Assembly: GCA_029077825.1 (NCBI GenBank)
Contig: JAQNCT010000017.1
Coordinates: forward strand, 1 to 44,781
From: Acidocella sp.
GTDB lineage: Bacteria > Pseudomonadota > Alphaproteobacteria > Acetobacterales > Acetobacteraceae
DNA length: 44,781 nt
Direction: 5' to 3'
Within the stretch, counting starts at the first letter, position 1; each line of letters opens with the position of its first letter. Under the pieces are notes generated by a model. It saw nothing but the letters and a program-made list of their open reading frames with translations. It did not search any database and was not told the DNA's origin. Position numbers and translations under genes: made by a program. Positions 7,026 to 16,858 of this stretch are shown here, piece by piece.

Positions 7026-7128
7026 ACTTGTTCGGAATGCCTCAGAGAGGGTTTCGGGCAATCGCCTACCGAGCCAGCCGCACGGTGGTTCGTTTATTTT
7101 TGACCTTGCTTTTTCAGGAGGTTTATCA
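7026..7128 (+). promoter_or_regulatory. ROSE-like RNA thermometer in the hsp20 leader
   Basis: The 5' leader can fold so that the Shine-Dalgarno AGGAGGT (7116-7122) pairs with ACCTTGCT (7103-7110) across a TTTTC loop, leaving one bulged G. This TTGCT-against-AGGAGG pairing is the defining core of ROSE elements that control small heat-shock genes in rhizobia and other proteobacteria. A second stem just upstream pairs CGAGCCA (7070-7076) with TGGTTCG (7086-7092). Melting at high temperature would expose the RBS of the ATG at 7129. Confidence 0.75.
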
Positions 7129-7596
7129 ATGACTTACGATCTGTCGCCTTTATTTCGTACTGCCATCGGGTTTGACCGTTTGGCCCGTCTGGCGGACACG
7201 CTGCCACAGGATGCTGTGGCGTATCCGCCTTATAATATTGAAAAACTTGCCGATGATGCCTACCGGTTGCAGCTTGCGGTCGCCGGTTTTTCAGCTGACG
7301 ACATTGAGCTGACTGTGAAGGATAATGCCCTTATCGTGGCTGGCCGCGTGGCTGAGGAACCCGCCAAAGGTGAATTCTTACACCGTGGCATTGCAGCGCG
7401 GGCGTTTACCCGCCGGTTTGCGCTGGCTGACCATATGGTTGTGGAAAATGCTGATATTTCTAATGGTTTATTAAATATCAACATCCGCCGCTTGGTGCCT
7501 GAGGCTTTGAAGCCGCGTAAGATTACCATTAACACCACGCCCGCAAAAACCATTGCGGGTTCAGCTGAAGCTTCGCAGTTTTCACAGGCTGCGTAA
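7129..7596 (+). CDS. Small heat-shock protein, Hsp20/IbpA type
   Basis: A 155-residue alpha-crystallin-domain chaperone that holds unfolding proteins in the cytoplasm without ATP. The N-terminus (MTYDLSPLFRTAIGFDRL) is the IbpA class A form. The alpha-crystallin domain spans about residues 35-125, including YRLQLAVAGFSADDIEL, GEFLHRGIAARAFTRRF, and the NGLLNINIRR strand with PRKITIN, the usual end of the class. It is a single-gene unit with its own heat-shock promoter, thermometer leader and terminator. Confidence 0.95.
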   Translation: MTYDLSPLFRTAIGFDRLARLADTLPQDAVAYPPYNIEKLADDAYRLQLAVAGFSADDIELTVKDNALIVAGRVAEEPAKGEFLHRGIAARAFTRRFALADHMVVENADISNGLLNINIRRLVPEALKPRKITINTTPAKTIAGSAEASQFSQAA

Positions 7597-9967: not shown

Positions 9968-10651
9968 TTAGTTTGCGGCTGCCCCCAGGATTTGGCCATT
10001 ATCAGCTTGCAACACCACGGCCACCTGCGCGCCGGCTGGGTGGGGTATGGTGTAGTCCATCATCGCGCCGCTCCAGGTGCCAAGCGATGTGATGCTGCGC
10101 ACCACATTCACCTCATGCAGGGTTGCGCCGCCATTTTCACCACCGCCAATTTTTGTGGTGTGGTCAGGGTCGAACCCGAACAGCCAGATTTTAGACCCTG
10201 CGCCGCTCCCTTGCGGGATATGAATGGTAATCATGGTGCCACCGGTAATACTTAACGGCACTTCGGGTGCCGCCGCTTTTGCCGTTGCAATTGCCGTAAT
10301 CACTTCGTCGCGGTGCGACCCCACCATCTGGGCGGTACCGTCCACCACCGCCTCTGGGGTATAAACCTCATCACTATGATGCAATTGCGCGTACCAGCTT
10401 TGGCGGGTGGTGGCACCGCTGAGGGAAAAGGCATCACGCCAGGCTGGGCCGTTCCAATAGGTCACATGAAAACTAAGTGGCAGAATATCGGGGTCAGATT
10501 TTTTAAGCTGGCTAAGCAGCGCTTCCGCCGGCGGGCAGGATGAACAGGCTTCCGATGTAAACAGCTCCACCACCACCGGCCGCGCCTGTGCGGGGGCAAT
10601 GGCCAATAACCCTGATGCCAGCAGGGTGATGTATCCTGTAAGAATTTTCAT
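9968..10651 (-). CDS. Secreted DUF1223 thioredoxin-like protein
   Basis: A 227-residue exported protein of the DUF1223 family, which has a thioredoxin-like fold. A Sec signal peptide covers about residues 1-24 (MKILTGYITLLASGL, cleavage near AQA). The Cys36-Ser-Ser-Cys39 motif in SEACSSCPPAE follows the first strand as in thioredoxins, so a periplasmic disulfide or redox role is likely. The partner is unknown. The ATG at 10651 overlaps the stop of the upstream molybdoenzyme by four bases (ATGA); a TTG at 10666 is in frame but less likely. The operon position suggests a role alongside the molybdoenzyme, perhaps in electron supply or thiol maintenance. Confidence 0.85.
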   Translation of the reverse strand: MKILTGYITLLASGLLAIAPAQARPVVVELFTSEACSSCPPAEALLSQLKKSDPDILPLSFHVTYWNGPAWRDAFSLSGATTRQSWYAQLHHSDEVYTPEAVVDGTAQMVGSHRDEVITAIATAKAAAPEVPLSITGGTMITIHIPQGSGAGSKIWLFGFDPDHTTKIGGGENGGATLHEVNVVRSITSLGTWSGAMMDYTIPHPAGAQVAVVLQADNGQILGAAAN

Positions 10652-11370
10652 GAGCCGCTGAACCAATCATAACCTTGGTCTTCCCAATAGCCGCCCGGAT
10701 AGGTGTTGGTAACCGCCAGTTGCATGATTGATTTGGGGTTTTTGAAGCCTAATTTCACGGGGACTCGCAGCCGCACAGGTGCGCCAAACGGTGCGGTCAA
10801 CGGCGCATTGAGAAAATCCAGCGCGAGAATGGTTTGTGGATGCAAAGCAGAAGCCATGTCGATGCTGGAATAATAGCCATCAGCGCATTTGAACGAGACA
10901 TATTTGCAACTGGTGTCGGCACCGATCCGGCGCAGGAAATACCCCAGCGGCACGCCGCTCCATTGGCCGATAACGCGCCAGCCTTCCACACACACGAACC
11001 GGGTAATCTGGCCTTCCTGCGGCAATGCTCGCAAGGCCGCCAAGGTCCAGGATTGTTTGTCCTGAATTTGTCCACCGAGTTCGAGCTGGTATGATGCCGG
11101 GTCCACCACCGGGGCCTGCGCCATACCGTAAAAAGCATTAAAGCGCGGTGGGTTGGTGACCATGCTGGCCGGGAAGGTCGGCGCCAGCGTGCGCGGGTTA
11201 AATAACAATGCCTGCATCTCATCATTAAAGGCCAGCATGGTGCGCAAAACATGGTCGGCCAGATCAGGGTGGGTTAAATCCTCAAAGTCGCAACCGGGCA
11301 GGGTGGTAATAGCCCCAAGTGCTAACGCCCGGCTGAGCAGTTTGCGGCGGCCCAAATCAAGCTTGTTCAT
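10648..11370 (-). CDS. YedY/MsrP-like sulfite-oxidase-fold molybdoenzyme
   Basis: A 240-residue exported protein of the sulfite-oxidase molybdopterin fold. An N-terminal RRKLLSRALALGA resembles a twin-arginine signal, and LPGC at residues 24-27 is lipobox-like, so it may be a Tat-exported lipoprotein. Cys127 in RFVCVEGW is the molybdenum ligand. GAPVRLRVPVKLGFKNPKSI is the family's C-terminal block. YedY/MsrP enzymes reduce methionine sulfoxide in the periplasm using electrons from a membrane haem protein. The upstream cytochrome b561 gene overlaps by four bases and fits that partner. It is shorter than E. coli YedY (about 330), in line with the small bacterial subgroup. The true substrate cannot be read from sequence. 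Confidence 0.85.
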   Translation of the reverse strand: MNKLDLGRRKLLSRALALGAITTLPGCDFEDLTHPDLADHVLRTMLAFNDEMQALLFNPRTLAPTFPASMVTNPPRFNAFYGMAQAPVVDPASYQLELGGQIQDKQSWTLAALRALPQEGQITRFVCVEGWRVIGQWSGVPLGYFLRRIGADTSCKYVSFKCADGYYSSIDMASALHPQTILALDFLNAPLTAPFGAPVRLRVPVKLGFKNPKSIMQLAVTNTYPGGYWEDQGYDWFSGS

Positions 11371-11993
11371 GATTGCACCTCAGGCAATTTGCCGCCGGTT
11401 ATCATGGCCGGCAACACGCGCGGAACCATGAGTACCAGCACGATATGGATGAAAAGAAACGCCACGATGCAAGCCATGGCGGTAAAATGCACGTAGCGGG
11501 CAATATAATATCCACCGCATAAATCAGTGAAAAACCAAAGCTGCACCGGCTTCCAGATCGCCAGCCCGGAGATAACCATGGTGATACCAGCAAATATCAC
11601 CCCCACATAAAGTGCTCGCTGCACCGCGTTATAAACGCCGCTCTGGTGCGGCAGTTTGAAGCGCAGGGCAGCGCCCAAATCCCGCAACACCGCTTTAGGA
11701 GACAGCGGCCAGAGTTTTTGTTTGAAATGTCCGCTCAAAAACCCCCAGAGCAAATAGCTCAGCCCGTTGAGCATCAGCAGCCAGATGAAGGCCAGATGCC
11801 AGGCGATGCCAGCACCCAGCCACGCACCAATGGTGAAAGTCTCGGGGAAGGTGAAGTTAAATAGCGGTGCGGCGTTGTAAATCTGCCAGCCGCTGCCGAT
11901 CAGCATCACGATGGCAAAGGCGTTCAGCCAGTGCATGAGGCGCAGTGGCCACGGATGGACGGGCCTGGGCTTGTGATATGTTGATCGTCCCAT
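11367..11993 (-). CDS. Cytochrome b561-type membrane subunit
   Basis: A 208-residue four-helix di-haem cytochrome b of the bacterial b561/thiosulfate-reductase family. Candidate haem ligands are in LMHWLNAFAI, AWHLAFIWLL, YVHFTAMAC and FLFIHIVLVL, one or two per helix. Such proteins take electrons from quinol and pass them to a periplasmic partner. The next gene, a YedY-like enzyme, overlaps its stop by four bases, so it is very probably the electron donor (the role YedZ/MsrQ plays elsewhere). I start at the ATG at 11993, which has AAGGAAG just upstream; an in-frame start at 12044 would run through the operator-like palindrome region. Confidence 0.85.
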   Translation of the reverse strand: MGRSTYHKPRPVHPWPLRLMHWLNAFAIVMLIGSGWQIYNAAPLFNFTFPETFTIGAWLGAGIAWHLAFIWLLMLNGLSYLLWGFLSGHFKQKLWPLSPKAVLRDLGAALRFKLPHQSGVYNAVQRALYVGVIFAGITMVISGLAIWKPVQLWFFTDLCGGYYIARYVHFTAMACIVAFLFIHIVLVLMVPRVLPAMITGGKLPEVQS

Positions 11994-12008
11994 AATGATC
12001 TTCCTTGT

Positions 12009-12067
12009 TTTGATACCGCTCACGCTGCCTGCTGGCGCCAGCATCGTCTAGGTATCAAATTGATGCC
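12009..12067. promoter_or_regulatory. Divergent control region with GGTATCAA dyads and a palindrome
   Basis: Between the divergent starts at 11993 and 12150 there is a 17-bp near-palindrome GGTATCAAATTGATGCC (12051-12067, one mismatch). A second half-site TTTGATACC at 12009-12017 is the exact inverse of 12051-12059. Between them lies the perfect 14-bp palindrome TGCTGGCGCCAGCA (12030-12043). In minus-strand RNA the two 9-base arms could close a large stem just before the RBS of the cytochrome gene. A protein operator and an RNA structure are both possible. Confidence 0.5.
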
Positions 12068-12149
12068 CAAACGGCATTGGCCGCCGCCGCCAATTTCCGG
12101 GAGTTTACCTCAGCCGGGCTCAGCCGGTGATCAATTTATGGAGTGTAGC

Positions 12150-12455
12150 ATGTCACGTATTATTTTCAGCGCCGTCCTTAGCCTTGGCCTGCTTGGGTCA
12201 GCCGCTGCCCAGGCGCAATCAACCTCGTCGATGAGCAACAACACCATGGCGCCCGCAAGCAGCATGAGCAATGGCAGCACGGACCATGATACCATGGGCA
12301 ATGGCAGCATGAGCAACAGCACTGACACCAAGAAGCAGGCTGACGGCTCAACCTCCGGGGCAATGGGTAATGCCGCCGCTGGCGCCATGAGCAATGGAAC
12401 CATGAGCAACGGCAGCATGAGCAACGGCAGCATGAGCAACAACAGCAGCAAGTAA
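12150..12455 (+). CDS. Secreted methionine-rich pentapeptide-repeat peptide (MrpX-like)
   Basis: A 101-residue exported protein. A signal peptide covers about residues 1-22 (SRIIFSAVLSLGLLG, cleavage near AQA). The mature part has about 79 residues, mostly Ser, Asn, Gly, Thr and Met, and no cysteine. It holds ten methionines, seven in MSN and two in MGN, and ends in tandem MSNGT, MSNGS, MSNGS, MSNNS units. This resembles the MXKDX-repeat proteins and MrpX, the methionine-rich peptide that YedY1 repairs in Azospira after hypochlorite oxidation. It is divergent from a YedY-like gene, supporting a sacrificial oxidant-scavenger role. Metal binding by the Met-rich part is an alternative. The ATG has GGAG at 12140-12143. 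Confidence 0.8.
   Translation: MSRIIFSAVLSLGLLGSAAAQAQSTSSMSNNTMAPASSMSNGSTDHDTMGNGSMSNSTDTKKQADGSTSGAMGNAAAGAMSNGTMSNGSMSNGSMSNNSSK
12387..12446 (+). repeat. 15-bp tandem coding repeat (four units)
   Basis: Four units of the pattern ATGAGCAACGGCAGC lie at 12387, 12402, 12417 and 12432, each encoding MSN plus two residues. Units two and three are identical; the first and last differ by a few bases. Such an array can change copy number by slippage, which would change the number of methionines in the peptide. Confidence 0.95.
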
Positions 12456-12463
12456 CTCTCGCT

Positions 12464-12492
12464 CCCCGGCGCGTCATGCGGGCGCGCCGGGG
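12464..12492 (+). terminator. GC-rich hairpin after the Met-rich peptide gene
   Basis: CCCCGGCGCG (12464-12473) and CGCGCCGGGG (12483-12492) form a perfect 10-bp stem with a 9-base loop, eight bases after the stop codon. No T run follows, so it may be a weak terminator or an mRNA-stabilising structure. Confidence 0.55.
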
Positions 12493-12498
12493 CTCAGC

Positions 12499-13200
12499 TT
12501 GAATTTTGATGCTGCCCGTTTGATACTTCCCCTATCAAGCCAGGAAGCTACCGTCATCGAAACTCTGCAATCCAAACTCGATGCGCTCCGTGTCAGCCGG
12601 TGTGAACGGCTGGCCTGGAGCGAATCCTATGAGGAAATGCTCTCCCAGCTTGGCCAGAGCGGGTTTCTGGAGCAGGTGATCAAACCCGGTGAATATTTCC
12701 CAGATTTCATGCTGCCGAGCGCTGAGGGGCAGCTGCTTTCGTTGGCGGCGTTTTTGGCACACGGGCCCGTGATCATCTCGTTTTTTCGCGGCGAGTGGTG
12801 CCCGTTCTGCCGGTTGATGCTGGCAGCGCTCACCGAGGCCCTGCCGCAAATCTCTGCCGCCGGCGCCACCCTTCTGGCGCTCACGCCTGAAACCGGCGGG
12901 CTGGCGCTGAAGATGAAAACCTACCATGGCGCACCGTTTGAAATTCTGGCGGATGTTGATTGCGGTATCGGCCTGGCCGCCGGGGTGGTGTTTAAAATTC
13001 CGCCAAAATACCGGGCGTTGCTCGGCCCCAATTTTCCGGATCGACACGGCAATTCCGGTTGGTATCTGCCGATTCCCGCCAGTTTTATTCTGTCCCAGGA
13101 TGGCCGCATCGCTTGGCGGTTCGCCGATGTTGATTTTTCTCATCGGCCTGAACCGGCTGATATTATCCGCGCGGTTGCGAACATGAATGGAAAGCTCTGA
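12499..13200 (+). CDS. AhpC/TSA-type peroxiredoxin-like protein
   Basis: A thioredoxin-fold protein of the AhpC/TSA group, up to 233 residues. The strand VIISFFRGEWCPFC carries Cys101 and Cys104 as a CPFC pair, where classical peroxiredoxins have PxxxTxxC; this is the peroxiredoxin-like subgroup usually annotated as AhpC/TSA. It probably reduces peroxides or works as a thiol oxidoreductase in the cytoplasm; no signal peptide is seen. The start is uncertain. The only upstream option is TTG at 12499, but a TTGATA dyad at 12520-12538 and a good RBS (AGGAAG, 12542-12547) suggest translation may begin near residue 20, where no ATG or GTG exists. The LysR gene overlaps its stop by one base. Confidence 0.8.
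   Translation: MNFDAARLILPLSSQEATVIETLQSKLDALRVSRCERLAWSESYEEMLSQLGQSGFLEQVIKPGEYFPDFMLPSAEGQLLSLAAFLAHGPVIISFFRGEWCPFCRLMLAALTEALPQISAAGATLLALTPETGGLALKMKTYHGAPFEILADVDCGIGLAAGVVFKIPPKYRALLGPNFPDRHGNSGWYLPIPASFILSQDGRIAWRFADVDFSHRPEPADIIRAVANMNGKL
12520..12538. promoter_or_regulatory. TTGATA-N7-TATCAA dyad
   Basis: TTGATA at 12520-12525 and TATCAA at 12533-12538 make a perfect 6-bp inverted repeat with a 7-base spacer, the spacing typical of LysR-family sites such as OxyR. The half-site matches those in the divergent region 450 bases upstream. It lies inside the extended reading frame of the peroxiredoxin, so it would act as an operator only if the real start is further downstream. Confidence 0.4.
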
Positions 13201-14069
13201 TGGAACTCTCGCAGGTCCGCTATTTCATTGCGTTATGTAAAACCCTGAATTTCACCAGGGCGGCGGATAGCTGCAATGTCACGCAACCAGCGTTCACGCG
13301 GGCGATTCAAAAACTTGAAATGGAATTTGGCGGCGCGTTAATTTTCCGCGAGCGCAATCTCACCCAGTTGACTGAGCTTGGTCGGGCTGTGCGTCCGCAC
13401 CTGGAAGCCATGATCGAAGCGGCCGAGGCCGCCACCGCACTGGCCAACGCCAAAATGGGCCGCACCACCAGCAGCTTGAAAATTGGTCTCGGGCCGGGCA
13501 TTGGCGCGGTTAGTATCGCCAGTGCGGTGCGTGAAGTCACCAGCAAATTACCTGACGTCACCATCCATTTCGAAGAAGCCGGCCCCGCCGCGCTGATCGA
13601 AGCCATGCTGATGGACAGCCTCGACTGCGCACTGCTGCCGGAGACAACCGAACTGCCGGAGCGTCTGAACCGTTGGCCCCTATATACCGACCGTGCATTG
13701 GCCGTGTTGCCACCCAACCATGGTCTCATCCAAAAAAACGCGGTGAACGCAGCGGATGTTGTGGCCGAGCCGATTTTGATGGGTGAAAATTGCGGCGGTT
13801 TCGCTAAGCAACTGGCCGATGCCACGGGGTTTTCTCTGCAACTGCAACGCTGCAACGGGGCTGCCACACAACTGCTGGAGTTGGTTGCCGCCGGGCTTGG
13901 CATGGCCTTGATGTCAGAGCGTTTGCGCTACGCGGCACCGCTCACCACCAGGCCATTCCATGAACCCGAACTGAACCGCCGAATTTTCCTCACCTCAGTC
14001 GCCGGGCGCCCGCTCAATCTCGCCGCCGCCAGTTTTGTAAAGCTCTGCCGGGTCAAGGATTTTTCCTAA
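13200..14069 (+). CDS. LysR-family transcriptional regulator
   Basis: A 289-residue LysR-type regulator. The winged HTH is at residues 1-60 (MELSQVRYFIALCKTLNFTR, then CNVTQPAFTRAIQKLE), and the effector-binding domain runs from about 90 to the end. The ATG overlaps the stop of the peroxiredoxin gene (TGATG), so both are on one message. That pairing resembles OxyR-peroxiredoxin modules. The effector domain has Cys residues (DCALLPE, NCGGFAK, RCNGAAT), but I cannot show that two of them match the OxyR redox pair. The TTGATA dyads nearby are candidate binding sites. Confidence 0.9.
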   Translation: MELSQVRYFIALCKTLNFTRAADSCNVTQPAFTRAIQKLEMEFGGALIFRERNLTQLTELGRAVRPHLEAMIEAAEAATALANAKMGRTTSSLKIGLGPGIGAVSIASAVREVTSKLPDVTIHFEEAGPAALIEAMLMDSLDCALLPETTELPERLNRWPLYTDRALAVLPPNHGLIQKNAVNAADVVAEPILMGENCGGFAKQLADATGFSLQLQRCNGAATQLLELVAAGLGMALMSERLRYAAPLTTRPFHEPELNRRIFLTSVAGRPLNLAAASFVKLCRVKDFS

Positions 14070-14110: not shown

Positions 14111-14162
14111 GGAACGCAAACTGATTACCTCTACATCGGATGATGCGTTCCGCATCAGGAGG
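14111..14162 (+). promoter_or_regulatory. Leader with two mutually exclusive hairpins
   Basis: GGAACGCA (14111-14118) can pair with TGCGTTCC (14144-14151), giving an 8-bp long-range stem. Alternatively TGATGCG (14141-14147) pairs with CGCATCA (14151-14157) around TTC, giving a 7-bp hairpin that ends in the first base of the RBS AGGAGG (14157-14162). The two cannot form together because they share 14144-14151. This is the layout of a switching leader. Confidence 0.45.
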
Positions 14163-14169
14163 TTGCCCG

Positions 14170-14490
14170 ATGACCAACCGTCTCGCCGTTTTGGCTTTTT
14201 CTCTTGCTCTGGGCGGCACTGCTCTGGCGCAAACTGGCAATGATGTTAACACCGGTGTCGGCTCGAATGCAGGCGCGATGTCGGGTCCGAATATTAATGT
14301 GGTCAACGGCACCAACGCCAATGGCACGCCGCGCCAGCAATCGCCAGGAAGTTCTATGACCGTGGGCGCAGGCAATAGCACCATGCTGCCGGGGATCACT
14401 GGTGGCGCTTCGGCCAAAGCCAAGGTGCCGCTACCCACCGTGACAACCGGTTCCACCTCCGGCACCATTCAAACCAAACCTGCGCCGTAA
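14170..14490 (+). CDS. Small secreted protein of unknown function
   Basis: A 106-residue protein I do not recognise. A signal peptide covers about residues 1-20 (TNRLAVLAFSLALGG, cleavage near ALA). The mature part is rich in Gly, Asn, Thr, Ser and Pro, with no cysteine, three methionines after the signal, and repeats of the NG/GN kind (GSNAGAMSGPN, NGTNANGT). It is likely disordered or a surface or periplasmic peptide. ATG at 14170 has a strong AGGAGG eight bases upstream. Its leader may switch between two hairpins. It follows the LysR gene and resembles in style, though not in repeat unit, the Met-rich peptide at 12150. Confidence 0.75.
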   Translation: MTNRLAVLAFSLALGGTALAQTGNDVNTGVGSNAGAMSGPNINVVNGTNANGTPRQQSPGSSMTVGAGNSTMLPGITGGASAKAKVPLPTVTTGSTSGTIQTKPAP

Positions 14491-14491
14491 T

Positions 14492-16858
14492 TCAGCCGCG
14501 CAATAGCGCGTCGGCGCAGGCATCGAGAATTGCAGCGGCGTCGATTTCGTATTCGGCATATAAAGCCGCTACATCACCGGACTGGCCAAAATGGTCCGGC
14601 CCCAGGGCCATGACAATTTGACCTCGCACCCCACCAAGCCAGGCATGGGCGGCGGGATGCCCGTCAAGCACGCTGATTATGGCGGCGTCACGCGCGAGGG
14701 GGGATAATATGTCTTCGATATGTGAAGTGGCAGCCATATCGCCCAACCGACGTGCGCGTTGGGCTGCGCGCCAGCCGGCGTAAAGCCGGTCTGGGCTGGT
14801 AATGGCCAATAATCCTGCCCCTGGTGCATCTTCCAGCAATTGCGCAAAAGCCTGCTCGGCTTCACCGGCAACCGCACCCTGGTAGGCGATAATAATTTTG
14901 GCACCAGGGGCTGGTGGCACCACCCAATGGGCACCTGCGATCACATGCGCTTTGTTCAAATTGCGTGATGGCTGGGTTAAAATCATGGTTGAGAGCCGCA
15001 ACCACACCGCCGAGCCTTCCGGTTGTTGCATCCAGTCAAAAGCGTGGCGCAATAATATCGCTAGCTCGTCACAATAGGCCGGCTCAAAGCTCGCCAGACG
15101 GTCCTGCACGATGGCAAGCAACGGGGTGTTGGTGGATTGATGCTGCCCACCCTCGGGTGCCAGCGTGATGCCTGATGGCGTGCCCACCAATAAAAACCGC
15201 GCATCCTGGTAGCAGGCGTAAAACAGCGCATCATGACCGCGGTTCACAAATGGGTCATACACCGTGCCAATCGGCAGCAGCCTAGCACCGTTCAGGTCAT
15301 GGCTCATGCCAGCCGCGCCAAGCAGTAAAAACAGGTTCTGCTCGGCGATGCCAAGTTCAATATGCTGGCCGGTCGGGTTGGTGCCCCAGCGCTGCGCGCT
15401 GGCCAGCTTGCCGTCGCGGAACACATCATCACGGGTGTGCCGGTCAAACACCCCGCGCCGGTTTATCCAGGGTCCAAGGTTGGTGGACACCGCCACATCC
15501 GGGCTCATGGTAACAATGCGCTTGGCCATGGCGGCGCTCTCGCCTTGCCCGCGACCAATTTCCGATAAAATCTCGCCAAACCCGGCCTGCGTACTCATCC
15601 GCCGACCCGTAAATTTTGGCTGCGGCAAAATCTCGGGCACCGGAATCATAGCGGCGTCCATCCGCCTTCCGTGCGTGGTCAGCGGGGTGGCAAATGGCAC
15701 GCCTGCCACAAACCGCGCCACAGCTTGCGGCTGCGCTATGCCTTCCCAGGGCTCCCACTCGTGCCCTGGGCGCACGTTCATCTCGGTTCGAAATTCACTC
15801 ATCTGGTCAACCGTCATCATCCCGGCGTGGTTGTCCTTATGCCCGGCGAATGGCAGCCCCATGCCCTTGATGGTGTAGGATAAAAAGCAGGTGGGCTGGT
15901 CGCTTGTCGCAGCCGCCCTGAATGCCTCGGTCAATGAAGCCAGGTCATGCCCGGCCAGATTGGTCATTAGTTTGCCCAACGCGGCATCGCTCAGCGGGTC
16001 AATAATGGCGCGCACGCCGCGCGATTTCGCCATATCCGCTAAAATGGCCTGCCGCCAGGCCGCCCCACCCTGGAAGGTGAGCGCTGAGTAGGTGGAATTG
16101 GGGCATTCATCGATCCAGCCGCGCAGTGATGAGCCACCTGGTTTGGCGAACGCCGCTTCCAGCTGCTTGCCATACTTCAACTGGACGACGCGCCAGCCCA
16201 TATCCTTGAAAAGCCCCTCGAACCGGCCAAACAGCCGGTCAGGCATCACGCTGTCCAGGCTTTGGCGGTTATAATCCACCACCCACCAGACATCCCGCAC
16301 ATCGTGCTTCCAGCCCTCCAGCAGGGCCTCATAAATATTGCCCTCATCAAGCTCCGCATCACCGGCGATGGCAATATGTCTGGCGCGGGGGCTGGCTGGG
16401 TCCACCATGCCATGCGCCCGTACGTAATCTTGCATCATGGAGGCAAAGCTGGTGAGCGCGACCCCCAACCCGACCGAGCCGGTGGAAAAATCAATCTCGG
16501 CGCCATCCTTGGCGCGGGACGGATACGCCTGCGCACCACCGAACTGGCGTAACCCGGCCATTTTTTCCAGGCTCTGGCGGCCCAAAAGGTAATTGATGGC
16601 ATGCAGCACAGGCCCGGCATGGGGTTTTACCGCCACCCGGTCCTGTGGCCGCAATGTGTCAAAGTACAAAGCTGTCATGATCGAGGTGACAGATGCACAA
16701 GATGCCTGGTGCCCGCCAACCTTCATGCCATCCCGGTTGGGGCGCAGATGGTTGGCGTTATGGATCATCCAGGCAGACAGCCAGAGCAATTTACGCTCAA
16801 CCGCCGCCATCGCCGCCAACGTATCAAGCTCAGATTTTATCGGACGGATCTCGTTCAT
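14492..16858 (-). CDS. Transketolase/AceE-like ThDP-dependent enzyme
   Basis: A 788-residue thiamin-diphosphate enzyme that joins the PP, Pyr and C-terminal domains in one chain, like transketolase and homodimeric pyruvate dehydrogenase E1. The ThDP-metal motif runs from GDAELDEGN (166-174) to Asn197 in VVDYNRQSLD. It is shorter than AceE (about 890) and has AceE-like rather than transketolase-like sequences around the cofactor. No E2 or E3 gene is adjacent, so I do not assign it to a pyruvate dehydrogenase complex. It may use a sugar phosphate or an alpha-keto acid. A 9-bp hairpin lies immediately before the ATG. It is a single-gene unit, convergent with the small secreted protein and divergent from the Rieske gene. 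Confidence 0.75.
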   Translation of the reverse strand: MNEIRPIKSELDTLAAMAAVERKLLWLSAWMIHNANHLRPNRDGMKVGGHQASCASVTSIMTALYFDTLRPQDRVAVKPHAGPVLHAINYLLGRQSLEKMAGLRQFGGAQAYPSRAKDGAEIDFSTGSVGLGVALTSFASMMQDYVRAHGMVDPASPRARHIAIAGDAELDEGNIYEALLEGWKHDVRDVWWVVDYNRQSLDSVMPDRLFGRFEGLFKDMGWRVVQLKYGKQLEAAFAKPGGSSLRGWIDECPNSTYSALTFQGGAAWRQAILADMAKSRGVRAIIDPLSDAALGKLMTNLAGHDLASLTEAFRAAATSDQPTCFLSYTIKGMGLPFAGHKDNHAGMMTVDQMSEFRTEMNVRPGHEWEPWEGIAQPQAVARFVAGVPFATPLTTHGRRMDAAMIPVPEILPQPKFTGRRMSTQAGFGEILSEIGRGQGESAAMAKRIVTMSPDVAVSTNLGPWINRRGVFDRHTRDDVFRDGKLASAQRWGTNPTGQHIELGIAEQNLFLLLGAAGMSHDLNGARLLPIGTVYDPFVNRGHDALFYACYQDARFLLVGTPSGITLAPEGGQHQSTNTPLLAIVQDRLASFEPAYCDELAILLRHAFDWMQQPEGSAVWLRLSTMILTQPSRNLNKAHVIAGAHWVVPPAPGAKIIIAYQGAVAGEAEQAFAQLLEDAPGAGLLAITSPDRLYAGWRAAQRARRLGDMAATSHIEDILSPLARDAAIISVLDGHPAAHAWLGGVRGQIVMALGPDHFGQSGDVAALYAEYEIDAAAILDACADALLRG

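Follow-up and report, generated by a model that had tools for sequence, protein, structure and literature searches.

Methionine-rich exported peptide divergent from a cytochrome b561/YedY-like pair in Acidocella sp.: a probable methionine-oxidation buffer with a candidate LysR operator

A contig from a 2.55 Mb draft genome of Acidocella sp. (assembly GCA_029077825.1, contig JAQNCT010000017.1, positions 1 to 44,781; this whole stretch of 44,781 nucleotides is termed the window) was found to carry a gene for a methionine-rich exported peptide, divergent from genes for a cytochrome b561 and a YedY-like molybdoenzyme. The locus is probably a periplasmic methionine-oxidation buffer, with candidate control by a LysR-type regulator acting at a conserved promoter motif. 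The features on which this reading is based were assigned as follows (ORF, open reading frame):

12150..12455, plus strand: methionine-rich exported peptide in the MrpX-type slot, 101 residues, with M-[SG]-N-x-[ST] units (ORF, profile and methionine statistics)
12051..12080, plus strand: conserved motif GGTATCAAATTGATGCCCAAACGGCATTGG of operator-like form, lying in the promoter region that the divergent genes share
11367..11993, minus strand: cytochrome b561 (PF01292, 83.7 bits)
10648..11370, minus strand: YedY-like molybdopterin enzyme (PF00174, 92.1 bits)
12499..13200, plus strand: AhpC/TSA-type peroxiredoxin-like protein (Pfam) with an uncertain start codon and no signal peptide recognised by eye
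13200..14069, plus strand: LysR-type regulator, OxyR-like (Pfam, alignment)

The peptide ORF (12150-12455, plus strand) is nested within a longer ORF with a TTG start (12060-12455). Its N-terminus was recognised by eye as a Sec-type signal, leaving a mature part of about 79 residues with ten methionines, seven in MSN, two in MGN and one in MAP. An earlier note on this DNA had described such a peptide, with its methionines mostly in MSN or MGN units and its gene divergent from the cytochrome and molybdoenzyme genes; nine of the ten methionines do lie in such units, and the ORF and Pfam calls confirmed the gene arrangement. Methionine was enriched over an assumed background of 2.4 % (binomial P 2e-5), and the distance between successive methionines was exactly five residues in five of nine intervals (permutation P 0.00027), a partial rather than a strict periodicity. 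With this restriction on periodicity, the peptide has the descriptive trait of model TIGR02953 (exported, methionine every five residues). The units are underlain by DNA repeats of 15 bp, and the array may therefore evolve fast by drift.

Kinship with the MXKDX peptides was assessed with the curated model TIGR02953 (cut-off 41 bits). Peptides in the same slot scored 48.9 bits (A. iwatense, L036), 44.0 (A. facilis, L032), 40.2 (L038) and 23.1 (L034), and the MXKDX peptides of Pseudomonas (L120) and Methylobacterium (L096) scored 103.3 and 72.8 bits. Because the syntenic peptides of A. facilis and A. iwatense pass the cut-off, the window peptide is assigned by synteny to the MrpX/MXKDX kind, as a diverged member. 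The units within the clade defined below form a gradient (MKHDT, MSHDS, MGNNA, MSNGS); the Ser/Asn/Gly units reported in the earlier note were thus seen, as the far end of this gradient and not as a separate invention. A genome-wide search with TIGR02953, which failed to list the window peptide itself, gave for the window's genome a single weak match (C78, E 0.14) and no other member above the cut-off.

A Methylobacterium plasmid locus (NZ_CP099614) carries genes for an MXKDX peptide, sigma-70, NrsF, MsrB, MsrA, b561 and YedY in a row. Its YedY and b561 proteins (L096) are 55 % and 52 % identical to those of the window, and, judged by this one locus, the b561/YedY pair looks to share a subfamily with the pairs of sigma/NrsF-linked loci. 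Of 580 confirmed relatives in the contig scan, the best 80 included no record naming Azospira. Since the peptide is linked to a YedY-like enzyme and a b-type cytochrome in relatives, the comparison upheld the earlier proposal of an MrpX/YedY1-type system, and likewise that of a distinct variant of it.

The YedY protein of the window was matched in 163 of 200 genomes of the family, weak relatives included, and 60 YedY loci with wide flanks were drawn from the upper part of this list. A detector for exported methionine-rich peptides was positive in 20 of these 60 neighbourhoods (581 kb), 19 of them convincing and one (L047) spurious by eye; on 400 kb of control DNA from ten of these genomes it gave a single match, also spurious. 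The detector misses the peptide of L039, which is plain in the promoter alignment. In a tree of 138 YedY proteins the window was placed within a clade of 21 rows with a Shimodaira–Hasegawa-like approximate likelihood ratio (SH-aLRT) support of 100. The full divergent layout (motif, slot peptide, peroxiredoxin and LysR) was present in 13 of the 21 clade members (window, L032, L036, L038, L039, L040, L042, L043, L044, L045, L101, L105 and L106), and in 11 of these 13 the slot is occupied by a short methionine-rich peptide broadly like that of the window; the slot protein of L045 is rich in methionine too, and of another kind. L041 has motif and peptide as far as the contig end, with a peroxiredoxin-LysR pair near another contig end of the genome, L037 and L099 are cut by contig ends, and in L034 and L035, where no motif was seen, peptide, MsrB, MsrA, b561 and YedY genes stand in line. 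The peptide is therefore kept beside the molybdoenzyme in relatives, as the earlier note had expected. A separate observation concerns L125 (Roseiarcus fermentans), in which an exported peptide of 100 residues (7120-7422), with 27 methionines in its mature part, lies near a b561-YedY pair; a distant peroxiredoxin and LysR are on the opposite side, and this is perhaps an independent case.

Alignment of 11 shared promoter regions showed a single block of conservation lying between the starts of b561 and the peptide, with a 30 bp consensus of approximately GGYATCRAnnnnATgCCnnnnCGGCATTGG. In this block an inverted repeat of GCATCG-AAA-CGATGC type comes first and then GGCATTGG, the last part differing in L104 and L105. 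Of the 21 clade members, 17 have the motif at the shared promoter, and two of the other four are cut by contig ends; among the fetched loci it was confined to clade members, and a reversed-pattern control gave no match in 1.54 Mb. Because the clade loci in which the motif was counted had also supplied the pattern, only the genome-wide searches are independent. With the wider pattern, 31 matches in 23 of the 200 family genomes were obtained. Fifteen of them, in 13 genomes, had at most one mismatch: 12 lie at the b561-peptide junction, two in G130 and the remaining one elsewhere in the window's genome. Sixteen matches had two mismatches; two of these, both in G130, were examined, and the others may be chance, although the reversed pattern gave none. 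Across 289 genomes of the class (285 outside the family), the window's genome was the sole match at up to one mismatch. LysR orthologues (E <= 1e-60) were found in 13 of the 200 family genomes, and the motif (up to one mismatch) was present in 11 of these 13 compared with 2 of the 187 others.

Motif-like sites in G130 (Acidisoma; L216, L217 and L218) lie near genes for a transaldolase, a transketolase and another Oxidored_molyb protein. These sites hint at a wider oxidative-stress regulon; the transaldolase, the transketolase and a peroxiredoxin-LysR pair of this genome were confirmed by Pfam. A further match with two mismatches (G081:C140:4974-5003) shares its contig with a distant (47 %) YedY relative, some 1.5 kb downstream of it, and may be chance.

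The second copy of the motif in the window's genome, at C42:6439-6468 with one mismatch, is the only other copy at up to one mismatch; the narrower pattern gave one copy in this genome and the wider pattern the second. The site and the gene behind it span:

C42:6090-6468 of the window's genome (G000; about 3588-3969 of L215): second site with, behind it, a methionine-rich exported protein that has two Cys

This protein has nine methionines in 70 mature residues, lacks pentapeptide order and matches no Pfam family. Its sole other homologue in the 200 family genomes (E 0.001) was found in G023 (41 % identity, E 3.3e-6), where it occupies the MrpX slot behind the motif, adjoining the peroxiredoxin and LysR genes. 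The G023 motif had helped to define the pattern; its slot protein and the methionine content of that protein had not, and the match is therefore independent support, from a single case, for the operator and for a common purpose of unrelated methionine-rich proteins.

The solved structure closest to the LysR protein, by sequence as well as by Foldseek E-value, was OxyR (4x6g); the TM-scores of other LysR proteins equal or exceed that of OxyR, and the score with OxyR model PRK11151 was 83.4 bits, below its cut-off of 329 bits. Cys25, Cys143, Cys198 and Cys283 were invariant in 13 aligned sequences, the window included. In OxyR the redox-active Cys is near position 199, with Cys208 as partner; Cys198 aligns to within two columns of residue 199 in the structure of OxyR C199D, and by eye the LysR protein has no Cys at OxyR position 208. 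From these residues a redox switch is plausible. The structural model had a mean predicted local distance difference test score (pLDDT) of 77, with the DNA-binding half mostly below 60.

On the minus strand the genes follow in the order b561, YedY, DUF1223, each start overlapping the preceding stop. Five His residues of b561 were invariant in 131 of 131 aligned sequences, and the protein is the probable quinol-to-enzyme electron donor. The YedY-like protein has a twin-arginine and a lipobox-like Cys27, and Cys127 aligns with the Cys of E. coli YedY (1xdq/1xdy), the nearest solved structure; the mean pLDDT of its model was 71. In 137 of 137 relatives checked, a twin-arginine precedes a lipobox-like L-x-[AGS]-C, which suggests a subfamily of lipoproteins exported by twin-arginine translocation; E. 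coli MsrP is a soluble protein. Two more MsrP-like matches, below the cut-off of MsrP model NF003767 (207 bits), are in the same genome (C11:3383-3817 and C42:61575-61892). On the plus strand the peptide gene is followed by the peroxiredoxin and LysR genes, overlooked in the earlier note, and by P0007. The two remaining features are:

9968..10651, minus strand: DUF1223 exported CxxC protein, facultative member (PF06764, 184.2 bits)
14140..14490, plus strand: P0007, another small exported peptide, rich in Ser, Gly and Asn, with 14170 as its probable start

DUF1223 adjoins YedY in 7 of the 21 clade members (window and six loci), compared with 13 of 21 for peroxiredoxin and LysR. The earlier suggestion that DUF1223 replaces the sigma/anti-sigma partners did not hold, and this facultative protein was rejected as their substitute. 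A segment 55 % identical to P0007 was found in L106 alone among 145 loci and takes the MrpX slot there; L106 carries two more exported Ser/Gly-rich peptides after LysR, one with MSNGS.

In the proposed mechanism, an oxidant (of the hypochlorous acid (HOCl) type, peroxide or other) would oxidise the methionines of the exported peptide, by the precedent of MrpX. Electrons from the quinone pool would then pass through b561 to the YedY-like molybdoenzyme, which would reduce methionine sulfoxide to methionine; gene linkage is observed for this step, and the reaction is predicted from family and precedent. The cytosolic OxyR-like LysR protein would bind the 30 bp motif and turn on both divergent operons as well as at least one other methionine-rich exported protein elsewhere in the genome; here motif, co-occurrence and second site are observed, and binding and signal are predicted. 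Phagocyte HOCl is unlikely to reach Acidocella, and the natural oxidant may therefore be peroxide or metal-driven. The peptide seems free to vary in sequence if it is exported, disordered and rich in methionine. More tentatively, it is possible that one 30 bp operator and an oxidant-sensing LysR govern interchangeable, unrelated methionine-rich sponges together with the membrane machinery that recharges them, that selection keeps methionine number and export, and that the peroxiredoxin is the cytosolic arm.

Several results weigh against the buffer and its proposed control. The window peptide scored 23.8 bits (E 3.1e-5) with TIGR02953, below the cut-off, and the peptides of L042 and L101 had no match to this model; five-residue spacing is all but lost in the L042 slot peptide (1 of 8 intervals). 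With the MsrP model the window YedY scored 84.7 bits, and identity with canonical MsrP was rejected on this score; the MXKDX-linked YedY proteins of L096 (89.0) and L120 (82.9) are likewise below the cut-off, and the window type therefore looks like a sister subfamily of MsrP. In L033, L098 and L104 the motif stands beside b561, and the fetched stretch lacks peptide, peroxiredoxin and LysR genes. In L098, from a bog metagenome-assembled genome, the motif is followed (from 5325, minus strand) by a truncated peptide start and a stretch that by eye is acyltransferase-like, and the next gene is 84 % identical to the window ORF 14492-16858; the peptide-peroxiredoxin-LysR block has apparently been lost. 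The slot peptide of L106 is poor in methionine, G139 has the LysR protein without the motif, a scan of 11900-12520 gave no sigma-70-like promoter, and in Brucella deletion of bcrXQP left H2O2 survival unchanged (PMC8315932).

The peptide could instead be a Met/His-rich type of periplasmic protein that binds copper or silver, its redox neighbours answering the same stress. Many clade members are indeed His-rich as well as Met-rich (MKHDT, MGHDS), and a Rhizobium b561/YedY pair adjoins a two-component system annotated as heavy-metal responsive. The window peptide, however, has a single His and neither MxM nor MxxM, and linkage to MsrA in 16 and MsrB in 14 of the 145 loci (L034 and L035 included; 8 of the 145 are repeats) points to methionine sulfoxide; no copper gene was named in three annotated plasmid regions, copper genes not having been searched for. 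Metal binding is accordingly judged quite improbable. General repair of envelope proteins by YedY/b561, the peptide being a low-complexity exported protein for surface, acid or osmotic protection that shares a stress promoter, also appears improbable. It would fit the P0007-like slot peptide of L106, Ser/Gly-rich and with few methionines, and the 90 of 138 tree rows in which the strict detector, which also misses real peptides such as that of L035, found none beside YedY. These rows, a further point against a dedicated peptide buffer, make it probable that the enzyme has other substrates. Yet the peptides keep their high methionine content while Lys, Asp, His and sometimes spacing drift, the second motif-marked protein is also rich in methionine, and the peptide gene of L034 and L035 stands in one row with those for MsrB and MsrA.

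A target of some regulator other than the adjacent LysR, which would leave the buffer reading of the peptide intact, is an unlikely identity for the 30 bp motif. G068 retains the motif with no LysR relative found at E 1e-20, as do L104 and L098 with no LysR in the fetched stretch; against this stand the co-occurrence of motif and LysR orthologue given above and the finding that G130, one of the two genomes counted there as lacking the orthologue, has a related peroxiredoxin-LysR pair with a two-mismatch site about 230 nt upstream.

Asaia belongs to the same family as the host of the window. An MXKDX protein of Asaia is reported among released proteins (PMC12502724), and MsrP/MsrQ are mentioned in an Acidiphilium (PMC7142476). 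In Azospira, mrpX is described as belonging to a periplasmic defence that counters hypochlorite by methionine cycling (PMC4623255), and mrpX-yedYZ with sigF/nrsF shares with the window an exported methionine-rich peptide and YedY-like and YedZ-type genes (PMC4623255, PMC8315932). Unlike that system, the window has its peptide in a divergent operon, with Ser/Asn/Gly in place of Lys/Asp, as far as the Azospira description allows; a search of the entire draft genome gave no match to NrsF (PF06532) at E 0.001, a Caulobacter control genome being positive, and LysR and peroxiredoxin are found instead of sigF/nrsF control. Brucella bcrXQP, encoding an MXKDX peptide and MsrQ/MsrP homologues, is induced by HOCl, and its deletion lowered HOCl survival (PMC8315932); in contrast to the window it is a single operon under extracytoplasmic function (ECF) sigma/anti-sigma control. 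E. coli c3566-c3568, reported to protect against peroxides (PMC8550376), resembles the window in its small methionine-rich peptide and distant MsrQ/MsrP homologues (23.1 % and 27.6 % identical) and differs in its two-component control. Pseudomonas L120 and Methylobacterium L096 share with the window a 55-56 % identical YedY, a b561-type cytochrome and an MXKDX peptide, in their case above the cut-off, which is co-directional and downstream in L120 and upstream with sigma/NrsF/MsrBA in L096.

No description of a LysR-peroxiredoxin-controlled MrpX system, or of any MrpX system in Acidocella, was found in the open-access literature searched. New here are the LysR-peroxiredoxin regulator, the divergent layout, the candidate operator and the predicted second sponge. 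The candidate operator provides a sequence handle for sponge proteins beyond the reach of homology searches, and the exchange of slot peptides (pentapeptide, C42 and P0007 types) makes the role of methionine count alone testable. The comparison suggests at least three kinds of control for the methionine-sponge strategy: sigma/anti-sigma pairs in Azospira and Brucella, a two-component system in E. coli and, here, a LysR-peroxiredoxin pair with its candidate operator.

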